A stretch of 64,000 nucleotides of DNA from Ignavibacteria bacterium (GTDB lineage: Bacteria; Bacteroidota; Ignavibacteria; Ignavibacteriales; SURF-24), in the NCBI GenBank assembly GCA_025612375.1, contig JAAXKN010000001.1, positions 290,669 to 354,668 on the forward strand, given 5' to 3'. The translations under genes and the position numbers were made by a program. The notes beneath the pieces were generated by a model. That model was not told the DNA's origin and did no database searches. It saw nothing but the letters and a program-made list of their open reading frames with translations. Below, piece after piece: positions 40,989-47,663 of this stretch (position 1 is the stretch's first letter; every line of letters begins with the position of its first letter).

Positions 40989-41732
40989 CTATTTTGCATA
41001 TGGGGATAAGGATTTTGGGGAGGTCATCTTTTCCATTATTTCGACGGCACTTTCAACTTCGCTCAGGCTGCCGATAATAAAGTCAGCCATTGAATAATCC
41101 TCCGGATATTTCCAGGCGCGGCCTTTAAGCCAGATGGTCCTGCAGCCCAGGCTTTTCGAGGGCACGATGTCATTGTCGTATGAATCCCCAATCATTATGA
41201 GCTCTTCAGGCTTAAGTGCTGTTTTACCAAGCATCTCCTGGTAAAACTCCCTGTCGGGTTTCCTTATGCCTGTTAGTTCAGAATCCATTACAAGAGAGAA
41301 AAGTTCATATATTCCTAAATCCTTAAGCACCTGAACAAGGTTGCTGTAAAAGTTTGAAATGACGCCGAGCGTATACTTCTTTGAAAGGTTAAGGAGCGTA
41401 TTGTATATATAACCGGTATTATTTTTTACTTCGCTATAGCACTTCCGGGAAAGGTCATCCGCTATCTGAGGCAGATCGTCGTAGAACCTGCAGTTATAAT
41501 CATTTACCAGGTGCTTCAGCTGAAAGGAGATCTGCTTGTTGAGAGTTTCAAGAAGGCCTGTATTTTTCTTTAGTTTTCCCGCCATATCCCGTTCAGCCAG
41601 AACATAAGCATTTCTGAATACCTTCTCCGGAATCATGATCCCTGAGCCGAGGTAAACCTCATGGAACTTTATTCCCCAATGGGTACCGTCGGTATCGAGT
41701 GTACCGCCGAAGTCAAAAATTATTGCTTTCAT
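40989..41732 (-). CDS. HAD-superfamily hydrolase, last gene of the seven-gene cluster
   Basis: 247 residues. Motif I is FDFGGTLDTDG, motif II GVISNFYS, motif III lysine in GIRKPDREFYQEML and motif IV IGDSYDNDI, with a C1-type helical cap between I and II. The nucleophile Asp is present, but the second Asp of DxDxT is Gly, as in some HAD subgroups. A phosphatase acting on an intermediate of this pathway is the simplest reading. It overlaps the flippase-like gene by 20 bases. Confidence 0.85.
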   Translation of the reverse strand: MKAIIFDFGGTLDTDGTHWGIKFHEVYLGSGIMIPEKVFRNAYVLAERDMAGKLKKNTGLLETLNKQISFQLKHLVNDYNCRFYDDLPQIADDLSRKCYSEVKNNTGYIYNTLLNLSKKYTLGVISNFYSNLVQVLKDLGIYELFSLVMDSELTGIRKPDREFYQEMLGKTALKPEELIMIGDSYDNDIVPSKSLGCRTIWLKGRAWKYPEDYSMADFIIGSLSEVESAVEIMEKMTSPKSLSPYAK

Positions 41733-42750
41733 TAGTAATCCCGCTTTTACGCATAAAAAGGGTATTCTCTTTTTTTAAGCTTCTGTTATTGAACTGAATA
41801 AGGAGCATACCGATTCCGATCCAGAACAGTTCCCTTATACGGTTGACAAGAGCGATATAAATTCCGACCGTGGCATCAGGAATGAAAGCTTTCAGTGTAA
41901 CATAAAGGCTCCCTTCCCTTGTTCCAAACTCCATCGGCATAAAGAATAATATATTCAAAAATAAGGACGACGCCCCGTGTATATACAGCGCCTGGAAAAC
42001 AGAGATATCTATACCGATGGACCGGAAGACAAAAAAGAACTCCATTGCAGCCAGAACACGGGCAAAGAATTCCATGCCGAGAACGGTGTAAAAGATCCTT
42101 TTCTGGTTGAAGTAGAAATCCTTAATCTGGCTGTCAATCTCGACTATATTGTTTTTATTTTCTTCCAGCTTTTTATTAAGAAACTTCAGGAACTTCAGGC
42201 GCATTATTATCTTTGATATCGCCTCATAGATTCCCAGCTTGTGCCGGGAGAATACAAAGGCCAGCATTAAGAAGATGACCAGAAATAAAATAACCAGTGT
42301 GACTGCAAACTTTAGTGACACAGGTATCACAAAAAACGTCACCGGTATTACTGCAAGCCAGAAGAGGAGGTGTGAAATGATGTGCAGCATCCTGTAAAGA
42401 GTAACCGAGGAAACAGATTTATTGATTCCCGTAAAGTCCTTCAGTGCGTATACTCTGTAAGGTTCACCCCCAAGGTTGACAAAAGGGGTAAGATAATTTA
42501 TGGCAAAGCCGCCAAGGCTTATACCGAAGATCCTCCAGAATGCAACTTTTTTTCTGTCCTCACCAAGTATAATGTGCCATCCCAGGGCATTGATCAGATA
42601 GACAAGGCCCCAGACCGCAATTATAGGCAGAAACCACCAGCCTGTCTTTCTTATATTGACAATTATTTTATCAAGGCCAAAGTCCCAGATAAGAATGACA
42701 AATATGGCAATCCCGACGGCATACAATATGGGAAATAGCTTTTTCCTCAT
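41713..42750 (-). CDS. Flippase-like membrane protein (LPG-synthase TM / UPF0104 family)
   Basis: 345 residues and about eight hydrophobic helices. The family signature region is seen as INYLTPFVNLGGEPYRVYAL followed by VSSVTLYRMLHIISHLL. It lacks the soluble aminoacyl-transferase domain of MprF. Members are linked to lipid or lipid-linked precursor translocation. Its stop region overlaps the HAD gene by 20 bases, and its start overlaps the dehydrogenase stop by one base (TAATG), so it is tightly embedded in the cluster. Confidence 0.85.
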   Translation of the reverse strand: MRKKLFPILYAVGIAIFVILIWDFGLDKIIVNIRKTGWWFLPIIAVWGLVYLINALGWHIILGEDRKKVAFWRIFGISLGGFAINYLTPFVNLGGEPYRVYALKDFTGINKSVSSVTLYRMLHIISHLLFWLAVIPVTFFVIPVSLKFAVTLVILFLVIFLMLAFVFSRHKLGIYEAISKIIMRLKFLKFLNKKLEENKNNIVEIDSQIKDFYFNQKRIFYTVLGMEFFARVLAAMEFFFVFRSIGIDISVFQALYIHGASSLFLNILFFMPMEFGTREGSLYVTLKAFIPDATVGIYIALVNRIRELFWIGIGMLLIQFNNRSLKKENTLFMRKSGITNESNNF

Positions 42751-43757
42751 TAAACAGCAATTGTTTGGTTTAATTCAGCTGCCCTGTAGCATGAGTGCAA
42801 AAGCCTGATGCTTTTATAGGCTTCATCCAGGTGGCAGTTGTCTTTAATGCCTGAGGTGATCTGCCCCAGAAAGTCGCTTATTAAGGAAACGTACAAGGCA
42901 ACGTAGTTCTTTTTATCAGAAGCATCGGGAACGGGAATTTTCAGGCTTCCCTGCTGAGAATGTTTAATCAGTTCAGTGCCGTTATAGACAAGGCTCATAC
43001 TGTCGTTTACAAGGCAGGCACTGTTTGCCCTTCTGTCGGCTCCCCAGGTAAGGCTGATCTGAGCAATGCCTTTGTCAAATTCCAGGAGCACGAGCGCCGT
43101 ATCTTCGACGCTGTAGTCGGTGTGCGAAATGGAAAATATTTTTGAGGTAACCTTTCTTGCCTCACCAAACATCCAAAGGGCAAGATAAAGGTAATGCACA
43201 CCGGTATCAGAAAGAATGCCGCCTCCGCTGATCAAAGGGTTGGTGCGCCACCTTGCGCCCAAAGGGGCAATTCCTTTATCCGCCTCCGTTCTGAAAACAT
43301 TAAACTGAAGGAGGCTCTTTTTCAGGGAACCTTCCGGAACCTCACTTCTGAACGTCCTCCAGATGGGAGAATATTTATACTGATGGACGGGCATAAAGAC
43401 CTTCGGATCTTCTGTCAGTACAGGATACAGCCTTTCTGCGTCAAAAGGACTTAAGACAAAAGGCTTTTCGCACAGGATATGGACGCCCCTTCTTATGCCC
43501 TCTTCAATCAGAGATGCGTGAGTCCCGGGGGGAGAAGAGATGTCAATAAAATCCACATCCTCCCGGCTGAACATTTCATCCACTGAAGAGTAGTACATTA
43601 TTCCCGGGAATTTTGCCCTTGCAAGCCTTACGGTCTCAGCGTTATTATCCACTGCTGCAACAATTTCAGCACTACAGGCTATCTCAGGGTCTAAGAATGC
43701 CGGCAGATGCCCTTCCTGTGCAATTTTCCCTGCTCCTATTATTGCTCCTTTCAGCAA
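42750..43757 (-). CDS. Gfo/Idh/MocA-family NAD(P)-dependent oxidoreductase
   Basis: 335 residues. The N-terminal Rossmann fold begins GAIIGAGKIAQEGHLPAFL. The signature ISSPPGTHASLIEEGIRRG is followed by ILCEKPFVLS with the catalytic Lys of the EKP motif. The C-terminal half is the usual beta-sheet dimer domain, with SGGGILSDTGVHYLYLALWM carrying the conserved Asp and His. The family oxidises sugars, inositols and derivatives; in this cluster it could make the keto group for the aminotransferase (inference). TTG start, 1 base after the upstream stop. Confidence 0.9.
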   Translation of the reverse strand: MLKGAIIGAGKIAQEGHLPAFLDPEIACSAEIVAAVDNNAETVRLARAKFPGIMYYSSVDEMFSREDVDFIDISSPPGTHASLIEEGIRRGVHILCEKPFVLSPFDAERLYPVLTEDPKVFMPVHQYKYSPIWRTFRSEVPEGSLKKSLLQFNVFRTEADKGIAPLGARWRTNPLISGGGILSDTGVHYLYLALWMFGEARKVTSKIFSISHTDYSVEDTALVLLEFDKGIAQISLTWGADRRANSACLVNDSMSLVYNGTELIKHSQQGSLKIPVPDASDKKNYVALYVSLISDFLGQITSGIKDNCHLDEAYKSIRLLHSCYRAAELNQTIAV

Positions 43758-43758
43758 A

Positions 43759-44685
43759 TTACTTCTCCACTTTTATTTTAGCCGTCTGAAATTTGTCGGC
43801 CATCAAAAGAAGTCTTTTATTAATACTCTCCTGCCTCACTGTAACCCAGGCAAGAAGAATGTTAAGAATCGTGAGTTCAAAGAGGAAGTAAAAAATGGGC
43901 CTGTCCAGGAGCACAACAATAAACAGCCAGAACTGGCGTGTATTAGTTGTAAGTATGTTGTAGTACTTAAGCAAAGGCTTATTGTACTCCTTATACGATG
44001 TCTTAAACTGGTCCGGTATATTATTCTTAAACACCTCGGCGCTGCGGCTGAAGAGCTTCTGGAAATTTTTAGACAGGCTTTCCTGCTGGCGCGTATAATT
44101 GACATAGAACATCATAAGGAACTTGCCCGGGAAGTCATGCCTCCAGCTCAAGTCGCTAAACTTTTTTGCCACATCCTTATGTTTATCGAGCTCCCCTTTT
44201 TTAACCGAGATTACAAAGTGCAGATATCCGTTGCGGTAGTAATCGGCCATTGCGCTCTGATAAGAGTGGCAGATGCCTGAGATAATGGCAAGAAGAAAAA
44301 TCCACCCGGTTCCTCCGGAATAAATTATTCTTAAGCACAGGTGTATATAAATGCTTAGGAATACGGTATTGCCTGCAAAGCCGTCGAAGATCCTTCCGTA
44401 CTTTGTCCGGAAGCCCGAAAGCCTTGCAAGCTGTCCGTCGGCGCTGTCAAAAGCTTCATTGATGATTATAAGAAGAATGCCGTAGATGTTCAATTTCACG
44501 TCATTATAGAACAGTAGGTGCCCCCCCATAACGCCAAGAAGCATTCCAATAGCAGTAATAGCATTGGGCCTTATGCCGAGCTTCCAGCAGGCCTTTGCTA
44601 TCAAAAAACCGAAGGGGCGGTAGAAATAAACATCCAGGAATTCTTCAACATCCCTGGTTTTATAAGATAATTCTATTTGCGACAT
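43759..44685 (-). CDS. CDP-alcohol phosphatidyltransferase family protein
   Basis: 308 residues and about six to seven helices. The signature D-x2-DG-x2-AR-x8-G-x3-D-x3-D is readable as DSADGQLAR...YGRIFDGFAG: the first three Asp are present, while the fourth, the presumed base, is Gly. These enzymes displace CMP from a CDP-alcohol and join the alcohol phosphate to an acceptor. A ~100-residue soluble insert follows the third helix. It overlaps the aminotransferase gene by 26 bases. The substrate pair is unknown. Confidence 0.88.
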   Translation of the reverse strand: MSQIELSYKTRDVEEFLDVYFYRPFGFLIAKACWKLGIRPNAITAIGMLLGVMGGHLLFYNDVKLNIYGILLIIINEAFDSADGQLARLSGFRTKYGRIFDGFAGNTVFLSIYIHLCLRIIYSGGTGWIFLLAIISGICHSYQSAMADYYRNGYLHFVISVKKGELDKHKDVAKKFSDLSWRHDFPGKFLMMFYVNYTRQQESLSKNFQKLFSRSAEVFKNNIPDQFKTSYKEYNKPLLKYYNILTTNTRQFWLFIVVLLDRPIFYFLFELTILNILLAWVTVRQESINKRLLLMADKFQTAKIKVEK

Positions 44686-46018
44686 CCTTAAAGGCTTCCT
44701 CCATTATTTCAATTCCTTCCTCGGCAATTTCTTCCGTAATTATAAGGGGCGGATTTATCCTGATATCGGGGTTATAGCCCATTACGATCAGTCCGCGCTT
44801 GAGGCATTCCTGGAATATCATCTGAGTATATTTTTTCTCAAGTTTTTCCTTTGAGCCGGGAGACTTGACGAGTTCCATGCCTATCATTAGCCCGCGCCCG
44901 CGCACCTGGCCGACGAAGGGGAATTTGTCCTTAAAGGTCATGAGCCTTTCAAGCATGAAGCTGCCGACCCTTGCCGAATTACCGACCAGGTCATCCTCAA
45001 CAATAGTTTTCAGAGTAGCCAGTGCTGCGGCCGAGGCCAGCGGGTTGCCGCCGTAGCTCGAAGAGCTTCCGGATGGATTGGCAAAAGGCTTTGAGAATAT
45101 GACCTCCTCGCGCGACATTAGCCCCGTCATGGGGAATCCCCCGCCAAAACCCTTGCCTACCGTAATTATGTCGGGCACCACGTTGTCGTGCTGGCATCCG
45201 AACATTCTGCCTGTTCTTCCAAATCCAGTAATCATTTCATCCACAATCAGGAGTGCCTTAATCTCGTCGGCCAGCTGTCTTAATTTTGTAAGGAAGCCTT
45301 CCGGAGGAACAACGTTCCCGGCTGTTCCCTGAATGGGCTCCACCACAATTGCGGCAATGTCGTTTGTAGTTTCGTACCTGATTTTTTTCTTCATGAAGTC
45401 CACGCACGCAAAGCTGCATTCAGGGAAGGTCTTTTCGAACGGGCAGTGCCCGCAGTTTGCATAAGGCGTCAGGTATCTTCCGAATGGAAGGGGCCCGAGC
45501 CCGTGCTTGAAGTTATCCCCGAGGAGTCCAAGCACGCCGAGCGTCTTGCCGTGGAATCCTTCCCAGAAGCCGATGAATTCCGATTTGCCTGTGTAGGATT
45601 TAGCGAGCCTCAGGGCTGCCTCAACGGCCTCGGCTCCGCTTGAGTAGTACTGCGTTCTCCTCAGGTCGCCTACGGCCACCTCTGACAAGAGGCTTGATAG
45701 CTCGGCGCGGTTTCTGGAGGTAAAGCTGCCGACGTGGATCTTAGAGACCTGCTCCTGCATCATTTTTACGTATTTGGGATGGTTGTAGCCCAGGCTTGCC
45801 ACACCGACCCCGGCAAAGAAATCAATGTAGCGGTTGCCGTCCACATCCTCAACGATTGCGCCCTCCCCTTTCTCAACTGCAATCTGCGAAGAGGTGGCAA
45901 TGGTCTGAATGCCCGGCGAGATAAACTTTTGTTCCAGTTCGAAGAGCTCTTTGGATTTAGGTCCGGGCACCTGTGTCTTCATAGAAGCGTATTTGGGTTT
46001 AAAGTCTGCTGTTAACAA
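44660..46018 (-). CDS. Class III PLP aminotransferase
   Basis: 452 residues. Fold type I motifs are YSSGAEAVEAALRLAK, LLIVDEMITGFGRTGRMF (PLP-contacting Asp) and the Schiff-base Lys in ITVGKGFGGGFPM. A Cys-rich insert, CGHCPFEKTFPECSFAC, resembles that of some archaeal GABA/aspartate-type transaminases. In this context it probably aminates a keto or aldehyde sugar/polyol rather than acting in amino-acid metabolism (inference). The TTG start is chosen because GGGAGGG lies just upstream; an ATG at codon 13 has no such site. It overlaps the ATP-grasp gene by 20 bases. Confidence 0.9.
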   Translation of the reverse strand: MLTADFKPKYASMKTQVPGPKSKELFELEQKFISPGIQTIATSSQIAVEKGEGAIVEDVDGNRYIDFFAGVGVASLGYNHPKYVKMMQEQVSKIHVGSFTSRNRAELSSLLSEVAVGDLRRTQYYSSGAEAVEAALRLAKSYTGKSEFIGFWEGFHGKTLGVLGLLGDNFKHGLGPLPFGRYLTPYANCGHCPFEKTFPECSFACVDFMKKKIRYETTNDIAAIVVEPIQGTAGNVVPPEGFLTKLRQLADEIKALLIVDEMITGFGRTGRMFGCQHDNVVPDIITVGKGFGGGFPMTGLMSREEVIFSKPFANPSGSSSSYGGNPLASAAALATLKTIVEDDLVGNSARVGSFMLERLMTFKDKFPFVGQVRGRGLMIGMELVKSPGSKEKLEKKYTQMIFQECLKRGLIVMGYNPDIRINPPLIITEEIAEEGIEIMEEAFKDVANRIIL

Positions 46019-46832
46019 ATTCCCTCCCTTTAGCTAATAGTAAGTTTGAAATATGGTAACCGGCCTCTTCCCTGATTGGGGCAAAGCTGGGCCAGTCGTT
46101 AATATCTATGATTATTATGGAGCCGTCACTTGTAATAATAGCATCCCCGCCGTAGACATACAGTCCAAGAATTTCTGCCGAAGCTTCAGAAAGCTGCCGG
46201 AGGGATTTTTCATCAAAGCATATGCTGAAATTGTTGGCGAGGTAATACCAGTAAAAAAATCCCGTTTCCCTGACCGCGTAGAATTTAACCGTATCACCCG
46301 GGATGTGCTCCTGGAGAATGACCCTGTCTACCTTGCGCCTGTGAAATTCCTCCAGCATGGATGTAATTTCCTCTCGGTCGGCCGCTACAGAAATCACGTC
46401 TTCTTTTCTTACGGCATGGACGTCCCCTCTTTTAATCCAGAGCCTTTCCGAAGAAAATTCATTTATCTGGCCGTTAAGGCTGATCCCGGTGGAAGTAAGT
46501 ATGCTCTTGGGAGTAGGTATCCCCCCGTTTGAAAGCATCCGGAGCATATTGAACCGGTAGCAGGAGTAAACGCTCTCCGGGGAATTAATGATCAGGGGAC
46601 CACGCTCCGAAATCCTGAAGAGCTCCTGTATCCCCTTCGGGCCCTGGACCATTGAAAAAATGATGTCTTCTTTTATTATATCCGGGCCAATCGTGTCCTC
46701 GTCATATAATGTAACATCTGCTCCCATTTTTCTTAAATTTTCAGCCGTGCAATTAATAATTGCCAGATCATTAACCTCATGATTCGGAGAAAATTCTGTT
46801 TTCCGCCGGATGCCTGCAAATTTTATCTTCAT
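45999..46832 (-). CDS. ATP-grasp family ligase
   Basis: 277 residues. After an N-terminal pre-ATP domain (about 1-90) comes the grasp region: LWIKRGDVHAVRKEDV with a nucleotide-binding Lys, VILQEHIPGDTVKFYAV, and the metal-binding end GGDAIITSDGSIIIIDINDW. Such enzymes couple a carboxylate to an amine through an acyl-phosphate. It is a good candidate to acylate the amine made by the adjacent aminotransferase with an amino acid or similar acid. Substrates cannot be read from the sequence. Confidence 0.82.
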   Translation of the reverse strand: MKIKFAGIRRKTEFSPNHEVNDLAIINCTAENLRKMGADVTLYDEDTIGPDIIKEDIIFSMVQGPKGIQELFRISERGPLIINSPESVYSCYRFNMLRMLSNGGIPTPKSILTSTGISLNGQINEFSSERLWIKRGDVHAVRKEDVISVAADREEITSMLEEFHRRKVDRVILQEHIPGDTVKFYAVRETGFFYWYYLANNFSICFDEKSLRQLSEASAEILGLYVYGGDAIITSDGSIIIIDINDWPSFAPIREEAGYHISNLLLAKGREFVNSRL

Positions 46833-46958
46833 GTCCTGGCTCCATAATTTTAGGAAGGTGTTTCAAAGGACAAAGGTCAGGCTTTGTACCTATTAAATTA
46901 TATACCCATTTTCTGCTACTATTTCAATACTATACGTTCTGAATCCGGGTCATCTCCA

Positions 46959-47663
46959 TTAAGTGCTCATGGAGAAGAGGAATTCCCCTGCTGCTTTTAT
47001 GTCGCTCATGTGGTCAATATCTATTATTTTGGAGAAAGGATACCCTTTCAGTTTATAGCCGTTATTAAGAAGAAGCCTGAGAAAGTTTCTGAGGCGGGAG
47101 ATTTTAAGCTCATGGGCTGACTTGATCATTTCAAAAATTCCGGGAGAGAAGTAGTATATTCCGCCTGTAGCCCAATTATAGCCCTGCCGGCTGTCGCTGA
47201 AAGAAGTAATGCCATACTCCCCGTCCATTTCAACGCATAAGGGTTTTTCGTCGTCAATATATTGTGTAACTGCAAGCACACCCTGACAGTCCAGGCCCTC
47301 TTTTATTGAGGATACAAATTTTGAAAATTCCGAAGCATCGAAAACTGAATCGCAGGTTGTAAGAAGAAACGGCTCCTCCGAAAGATAAGGCGCAAGGCTA
47401 AAGAGGCTGTGCATGGAGCTTTCTGTGGTCTTAATGACAAGTTTAACCGGGACCTGAAAGTCCCCCGAAATAAAGAATTCCCTTAAGGCCGGTTCATCTT
47501 CATTTATAATGCAGTATATTGAACTTACACCATTTAATACAGAAAGCCTTATTATTCTTTCAATTATCGTCTCCCCATTAATGCTTATCATGGCCTTCGC
47601 GGTCTTTAAGCCCTCGGCCTTCAGGCGCGAACTCTCGCCAGCAGCCAGTATTGCCAGGTTCAT
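46959..47663 (-). CDS. MobA-like NTP (nucleotidyl) transferase
   Basis: 234 residues, Rossmann-like. The nucleotide loop LAAGESSRL is followed by GLKTAKAMISINGETIIERI with the conserved Lys, the metal Asp is in TTCDSVFD, and the end reads IDIDHMSDIKAAGEF, the form found in sugar- or inositol-phosphate (cytidylyl)transferases. As first gene of the cluster it could make the CDP-alcohol used by the phosphatidyltransferase. 126 bases separate it from the ATP-grasp gene; that gap holds a weak hairpin (46867-46891). AGAGG lies before the ATG. Confidence 0.85.
   Translation of the reverse strand: MNLAILAAGESSRLKAEGLKTAKAMISINGETIIERIIRLSVLNGVSSIYCIINEDEPALREFFISGDFQVPVKLVIKTTESSMHSLFSLAPYLSEEPFLLTTCDSVFDASEFSKFVSSIKEGLDCQGVLAVTQYIDDEKPLCVEMDGEYGITSFSDSRQGYNWATGGIYYFSPGIFEMIKSAHELKISRLRNFLRLLLNNGYKLKGYPFSKIIDIDHMSDIKAAGEFLFSMST

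Follow-up and report, generated by a model that had tools for sequence, protein, structure and literature searches.

A seven-gene Ignavibacteria operon related to a Bacteroidota inositol-lipid cluster may encode a lipid with an amino-inositol head group

Results

A seven-gene operon built on a putative inositol-lipid core

A run of seven genes occupies positions 40989-47663 of a 64,000-nt stretch of DNA (the window) from Ignavibacteria bacterium GCA_025612375.1, contig JAAXKN010000001.1. By sequence comparison, this operon is a modified version of a putative alternative inositol-lipid cluster of Bacteroidota and not an orphan operon, and we are confident that it makes an inositol-type lipid. 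Added to the core is a strictly co-inherited pair of genes, encoding a class III aminotransferase (AT3) and a dehydrogenase (GFO). With less assurance, we think that the inositol ring is probably aminated, and we favor to the same extent, as the product of the operon, a membrane lipid whose inositol head group carries an amine. Genomes, contigs and loci are labeled G, C and L, with G000 denoting the genome of the window and G001 its congener. The seven genes, in order of transcription, are as follows.

46959..47663, minus strand: NTPT, inositol-phosphate cytidylyltransferase-like nucleotidyltransferase, 234 aa; Pfam NTP_transf_3 (1.1e-10)/NTP_transferase
45999..46832, minus strand: ATPG, ATP-grasp enzyme, 277 aa, core member; AlphaFold2 (AF2) model and Foldseek
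44660..46018, minus strand: AT3, class III pyridoxal phosphate (PLP) aminotransferase, 452 aa, TTG start, add-on; Aminotran_3 5.1e-97
43759..44685, minus strand: CDPOH, CDP-alcohol phosphotransferase, 308 aa; CDP-OH_P_transf 1.1e-9
42750..43757, minus strand: GFO, Gfo/Idh/MocA NAD(P)-dependent dehydrogenase, 335 aa, TTG start, add-on; GFO_IDH_MocA 9.7e-22
41713..42750, minus strand: LPGTM, flippase-like membrane protein of the MprF transmembrane-domain family, 345 aa; LPG_synthase_TM 3.1e-32
40989..41732, minus strand: HAD, haloacid-dehalogenase-superfamily protein, 247 aa; HAD_2 9.6e-17

All seven open reading frames (ORFs) were confirmed at these positions. An earlier, sequence-only reading of this DNA had described seven families on one strand with tight junctions from ATPG onward, and its coordinates, families, overlaps and 1-bp gap all held. 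The junctions are +126 bp (NTPT/ATPG), -20 (ATPG/AT3), -26 (AT3/CDPOH), +1 (CDPOH/GFO), -1 (GFO/LPGTM) and -20 (LPGTM/HAD), the exact overlaps at AT3 and GFO hinging on the choice of their TTG starts. The arrangement is more than chance, as other genomes of the class share its gene order and content, among them the congener, whose locus L040 is 56-90% identical gene by gene. The conserved operon in relatives is larger, with the inositol-3-phosphate synthase gene (MIPS) and usually MlaE, MlaF and MlaD beside the seven-gene set. An Rfam scan of the window gave no match, and a promoter and terminator scan gave only weak consensus matches, which were not relied on.

Relation to described inositol-lipid systems

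The polar-lipid pathway proposed in the sequence-only reading is supported, as its core genes are those of a cluster already described. Heaver et al. 2022 reported a 'putative alternative inositol lipid cluster', whose suggested products are CDP-inositol and inositol lipids; it is spread over Bacteroidota, usually beside MIPS, with exceptions such as P. copri (PMC9246714). Among its hosts, B. vulgatus and P. veroralis produce phosphoinositol (PI)-dihydroceramide, the former without homologues of BT_1522/23/25 (PMC9246714). That cluster resembles the window operon in its NTP transferase, CDP-alcohol phosphatidyltransferase, HAD and LPG-synthase-like membrane protein, and MIPS is its usual neighbor. 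Two criteria follow from the description of Heaver et al. The first, an NTP transferase, a CDP-alcohol phosphatidyltransferase and a HAD protein together, describes the window; the second, a nearby MIPS, describes most cluster genomes of the class and not the window, which we do not take as excluding membership given exceptions of the P. copri type.

Relatives of CDPOH in Bacteroides, Parabacteroides and Prevotella lie in loci with an NDP-sugar synthase, a 'hypothetical' gene, a CDP-alcohol transferase and a HAD gene, joined by MIPS in Bacteroides and Prevotella and by the LPG-synthase transmembrane gene in Bacteroides. By tblastn, this 'hypothetical' gene proved to be that of the ATP-grasp protein. 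The core genes of the window are 32-41% identical to those of the Bacteroides, Parabacteroides and Prevotella loci, and the order NTPT-ATPG-CDPOH-LPGTM-HAD is the same in Phocaeicola sartorii (L107) and Bacteroides (L035). In a set of 80 named loci, the core was seen again across Bacteroidota, mostly accompanied by MIPS. In a search of gene neighborhoods, which the sequence-only reading had suggested as a check, the full set co-occurs in other genomes of the class, and clusters elsewhere in Bacteroidota hold the core without the amine pair.

Unlike the cluster of Heaver et al., the window operon contains AT3 and GFO and has no MIPS beside it, and relatives within the class also have MlaE/F/D. 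Neither 'ATP-grasp' nor 'aminotransferase' is mentioned in the main text of that study (PMC9246714). The sequence-only reading, which suggested an undescribed product, overlooked an earlier description of the core, which is functionally putative, and the MIPS and lipid ABC transporter genes that make the operon of relatives complete. Neither the amine cassette nor the Mla linkage appears in the literature examined. No description of aminoinositol lipids, or of inosamine together with an inositol lipid, was found in that literature, which covers a minority of the subscription journals.

Three other systems invite comparison. The characterized B. thetaiotaomicron cluster BT_1522-1526 uses MIPS and a CDP-alcohol transferase, as would the window pathway, to make PI and PI-dihydroceramide; it differs in its PIP-DAG intermediate and PgpA-type phosphatase and, as described, has no cytidylyltransferase, HAD or amine genes (PMC9246714). 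The Thermotoga/Archaeoglobus pathway of inositol-1-phosphate cytidylyltransferase (IPCT) and DIPP synthase shares with the window scheme a CTP-activated inositol phosphate and a CDP-alcohol transferase. To our knowledge, that pathway yields a soluble solute, and flippase, Mla and amine genes are not part of it. In the streptidine (streptomycin) pathway, a Gfo/Idh/MocA inositol dehydrogenase is followed by an aminotransferase and then by inosamine phosphorylation; the aminotransferase is of the DegT type, not class III, and the product is an antibiotic, not a lipid. The likeness here is one of logic only, and no membership is claimed.

MIPS is linked to the cluster throughout the class

The class was surveyed in 294 genomes (E-value cut-offs of 1e-40 for CDPOH, 1e-60 for GFO and 1e-170 for AT3), and CDPOH was found in 21 of them. 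MIPS is encoded in all 21 cluster genomes versus 33 of the 273 others (Fisher 8e-18, uncorrected for kinship), and it adjoins the cluster in 19 of the 21, the exceptions being G000 and G061. The sequence-only reading was right that no inositol phosphate synthase lies in the window; in G000 the gene is on another contig (C12:65146-66369), surrounded by nucleotide-sugar and glycosyltransferase genes. A second inositol cluster beside this lone MIPS (L060) was considered and rejected, as the locus holds nucleotide-sugar epimerases, an alcohol dehydrogenase, a GFO-type gene and glycosyltransferases, and a CDP-alcohol transferase is absent. Since the congener carries a full cluster with MIPS (L041) in addition to one like that of the window (L040), the window cluster, the only one in its genome, looks like a reduced paralogue.

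AT3 and GFO are inherited as a pair

In the same survey, GFO was found in 18 genomes and AT3 in 17, nested within the CDPOH set; an 18th AT3 genome (G053) has the gene truncated by a contig end. Neither gene occurs outside the 21 CDPOH genomes. Wherever all three are present, the order AT3-CDPOH-GFO is constant, and in every locus read AT3 and GFO are jointly present or jointly absent. Three pair-free genomes (G030, G061 and G273; L054, L151 and L152) and a second locus of G009 (L051) retain the core. Mapped on the CDPOH tree, presence of the pair calls for 4-5 gains or losses and not for a single event; an independent-pairs test used AT3 presence as the label on both sides and shows the number of changes only.

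AT3 orthologues (1e-150) were confined to the order of the window in a 396-genome sample of the phylum that overlaps the class sample. Among the 80 named loci, AT3 occurs only in those titled Ignavibacteria, Ignavibacteriae or Ignavibacteriales, plus two others. One of these (L065), titled 'Bacteroidetes bacterium', is 88-100% identical to Ignavibacteria-class loci. The other (L074), from a record titled Patescibacteria (BroJett037), carries a full Ignavibacteria-type cluster including AT3 and is probably a misbinned or misassigned contig. A search of viral contigs with CDPOH gave no match, and a search of a plasmid collection with AT3 at E 1e-80 gave none; CDPOH matches in the plasmid collection are Bacteroidales loci filed as plasmids.

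AT3 scores 325.5 bits against Pfam Aminotran_3 (cut-off 30.5) and has both the class III profile and the PLP lysine. That lysine (K289) and R420 are invariant, and Thr232 stands in place of the Glu of GABA aminotransferase in 15/15 aligned sequences; orthologues outside the genus are mutually 70-77% identical. Thr232 with invariant Lys289 and Arg420 would fit a glutamate donor and a non-carboxylate acceptor. For GFO, the best NCBIfam match is inositol 2-dehydrogenase TIGR04380 (iolG; 8e-17, at 61 bits versus a cut-off of 355), and the third PDB match is the myo-inositol 2-dehydrogenase 3cea. The catalytic residues K98 (the EKP lysine), D184 and H188 (D-x3-H) are invariant in 15 sequences.

Core enzymes and their active sites

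The top PDB match of NTPT by profile search is 4jd0 (E 9.2e-12), the IPCT of T. maritima (PMC12275187). Residues R13, K23 and D105, invariant in 23 sequences, align with the active-site Arg, Lys and Asp of 4jd0, and the score lies under the NCBIfam equivalog cut-off for inositol-1-phosphate cytidylyltransferase. NTPT is IPCT-like in its active site, with an inositol phosphate as its predicted substrate.

CDPOH belongs to its family by descent, with an altered motif. It matches the Pfam profile, its best NCBIfam matches are archaetidylinositol phosphate synthase and phosphatidylinositol phosphate (PIP) synthase, both below cut-off, and its AF2 model (predicted local distance difference test (pLDDT) 94.8) matches AF2299, PIP synthases and IPCT-DIPPS in Foldseek. 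The family motif tested, DxxDGxxAR(8-9)GxxxDxxxD, has four Asp; the window protein keeps three, and the fourth is Gly105. This Asp is absent (Gly or another residue) in 104/110 motif-bearing CDPOH ORFs, some loci being counted twice, and in 104/104 such ORFs an Asn or Asp lies one position past it, mostly as G then N/D. LPGTM matches NCBIfam TIGR00374 (flippase-like) above cut-off.

HAD was taken in the sequence-only reading for an ordinary phosphatase, which now seems doubtful. The nucleophile Asp7 is invariant, but Gly9 replaces the phosphatase acid/base Asp in 88/88 sequences, so that motif I of a phosphomonoesterase (DxD, nucleophile plus acid/base Asp) is incomplete.

ATPG has zero Pfam matches and only weak RimK-type matches in NCBIfam. 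Its AF2 model (pLDDT 94.1) matches the ATP-grasp enzymes PsnB, Ddl, RimK and LysX in Foldseek, the top 50 matches all being ligases with the graspetide ligase PsnB first. Profile matches also place PsnB first (7drm, 9.6e-5), with ITPK inositol kinases next (3.8e-4 to 3.7e-3), and D243 and N245 are invariant. ATPG could thus be a kinase, as sequence hints, or a ligase, as fold hints. The earlier proposal that it decorates the amine does not hold as a general role, since ATPG is present in clusters without AT3 and GFO.

Proposed pathway and its alternatives

In the pathway that we propose, MIPS, encoded elsewhere in the genome, would make inositol phosphate, and GFO would turn one hydroxyl of the ring into a ketone, which AT3 would transaminate to an amino-deoxy-inositol (inosamine) unit; amination could take place on free inositol, on inositol phosphate or on the finished lipid. 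NTPT would activate the phosphorylated cyclitol with CTP, CDPOH would transfer phospho-(amino)inositol to a lipid alcohol, either diacylglycerol or dihydroceramide, and LPGTM would flip the lipid product. ATPG may act as a re-phosphorylating kinase or as an ester/amide ligase. We infer the substrates and the order of steps throughout; observed directly are gene content, homology, conserved residues, the joint inheritance of the AT3/GFO pair, and the linkage of the cluster with MIPS and Mla. Of the two head groups suggested by the sequence-only reading, amino-inositol is favored by the MIPS linkage and the co-inherited pair.

Most relatives carry the MlaE, MlaF and MlaD genes between NTPT and ATPG (Pfam-confirmed in L049), and these would carry the product between membranes, towards the outer membrane. 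The window cluster is without them, and three MlaD-domain genes lie elsewhere in G000. A ceramide acceptor is plausible because the same genome encodes a CFB-type serine palmitoyltransferase, whose best NCBIfam match is NF047600 (499 bits versus a 640 cut-off) and whose best PDB match is a serine palmitoyltransferase. That gene (L147:331-3894, contig C30 of G000) lies beside genes for an NAD-epimerase-type dehydrogenase and a 373-aa protein, perhaps a ceramide synthesis locus. The most far-reaching version of the proposal is a new lipid class, a phospho-inosamine glycerolipid or sphingolipid made by way of an oxidation-transamination cassette inserted in the Ignavibacteria inositol-lipid pathway, with dedicated Mla-type export to the outer membrane, as a zwitterionic counterpart of phosphatidylinositol; we advance it tentatively, at a little under an even chance.

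Several points weigh against an aminated inositol lipid. The enzyme functions in the window cluster and in the alternative cluster of Heaver et al. are predictions, and MIPS is not part of the window cluster. The GFO and AT3 families are promiscuous; two other structures rank above the inositol dehydrogenase 3cea among the PDB matches of GFO, and the nearest solved relatives of AT3 are amino-acid racemases and GABA aminotransferases. With CDPOH lacking the fourth catalytic Asp and HAD its acid/base Asp, both may carry out non-textbook steps. As to the statistics, Fisher values disregard shared ancestry, and a sign test cannot reach significance on about four independent changes.

The relatives of AT3 would also suit an ordinary inositol lipid whose ring is not aminated, in which AT3, with GFO, would make an amino acid or small amine that an ATP-grasp ligase would then join to the inositol head group. 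The resemblance of the ATPG model to ligases, PsnB first, is consistent with this, as are four clusters with tandem ATPG genes (L050, L053, L055 and L056), all of which have AT3 and GFO. However, Bacteroidota clusters without the pair still hold ATPG, which excludes a general dependence on an AT3/GFO product. The constant pairing of GFO with AT3 fits polyol oxidation followed by transamination, and Thr232 departs from the GABA-type Glu in every aligned AT3 sequence. On balance, we consider such a decorated lipid unlikely.

Considerably less probable is an aminated, soluble di-inositol-phosphate-like solute, made as by the IPCT, DIPP synthase and phosphatase of Thermotoga/Archaeoglobus. NTPT and CDPOH do match the IPCT-DIPPS family weakly, but Bacteroidota that bear the core make inositol lipids (PMC9246714), a flippase-family protein is in the core of most loci, MlaE/F/D are in the operons of most relatives, and HAD is without the acid/base Asp that a DIPP phosphatase should have. 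Phosphonolipid pathways include CDP-alcohol transferases and cytidylyltransferases, and a hydroxy-aminoethylphosphonate ammonia-lyase family is among the NCBIfam matches of AT3, below cut-off, but the earlier option of a phosphonate head group, in which NTPT would form a CMP-phosphonate and AT3 would be a phosphonate aminotransferase, is highly improbable, as the linked gene in relatives is MIPS and not phosphoenolpyruvate (PEP) mutase, for which the best match in the searched genome of the window scores 107.2 bits against a family cut-off of 319.55.

Few bacteria make inositol lipids, and the function of the alternative cluster of Bacteroidota is putative. Beyond the 2022 description, the present loci add a near-constant ATP-grasp gene and the unusual active sites of HAD and of the CDP-alcohol transferase, together with a naturally varied sister version that has the amine cassette and a class-level version with a linked lipid transporter. 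Should the operon make an amino-inositol lipid, the head group would change from anionic to zwitterionic, affecting outer-membrane charge, and AT3 and GFO would be genetic markers for locating the lipid in environmental genomes.

Related loci

Other CDP-alcohol transferases were seen besides those of the core. In Parabacteroides distasonis, a second one, ~35% identical, lies in a separate operon (L037:13259-16219) with a CTP_transf_like cytidylyltransferase, a short-chain (SDR) dehydrogenase and an acyltransferase, possibly for another polar lipid. A third group, of ~30% identity, is found in G010 (L059:5119-8654) beside an NTP transferase, a HisC-like aminotransferase and a LysE-type exporter, a possible other amino-alcohol phosphodiester pathway. 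Clusters of family f20 contain an extra 213-aa CDP-alcohol transferase within the operon (L153:5274-5915, L154:10200-10841 and L158:10342-10983); two of the three checked are closest to archaetidylinositol phosphate synthase, and the two transferases may use different acceptors. Finally, a partial cluster of ATPG-CDPOH-LPGTM only in G004 (L042:7222-10078) may share NTPT, AT3, GFO and MIPS with the complete cluster of the same genome (L043).

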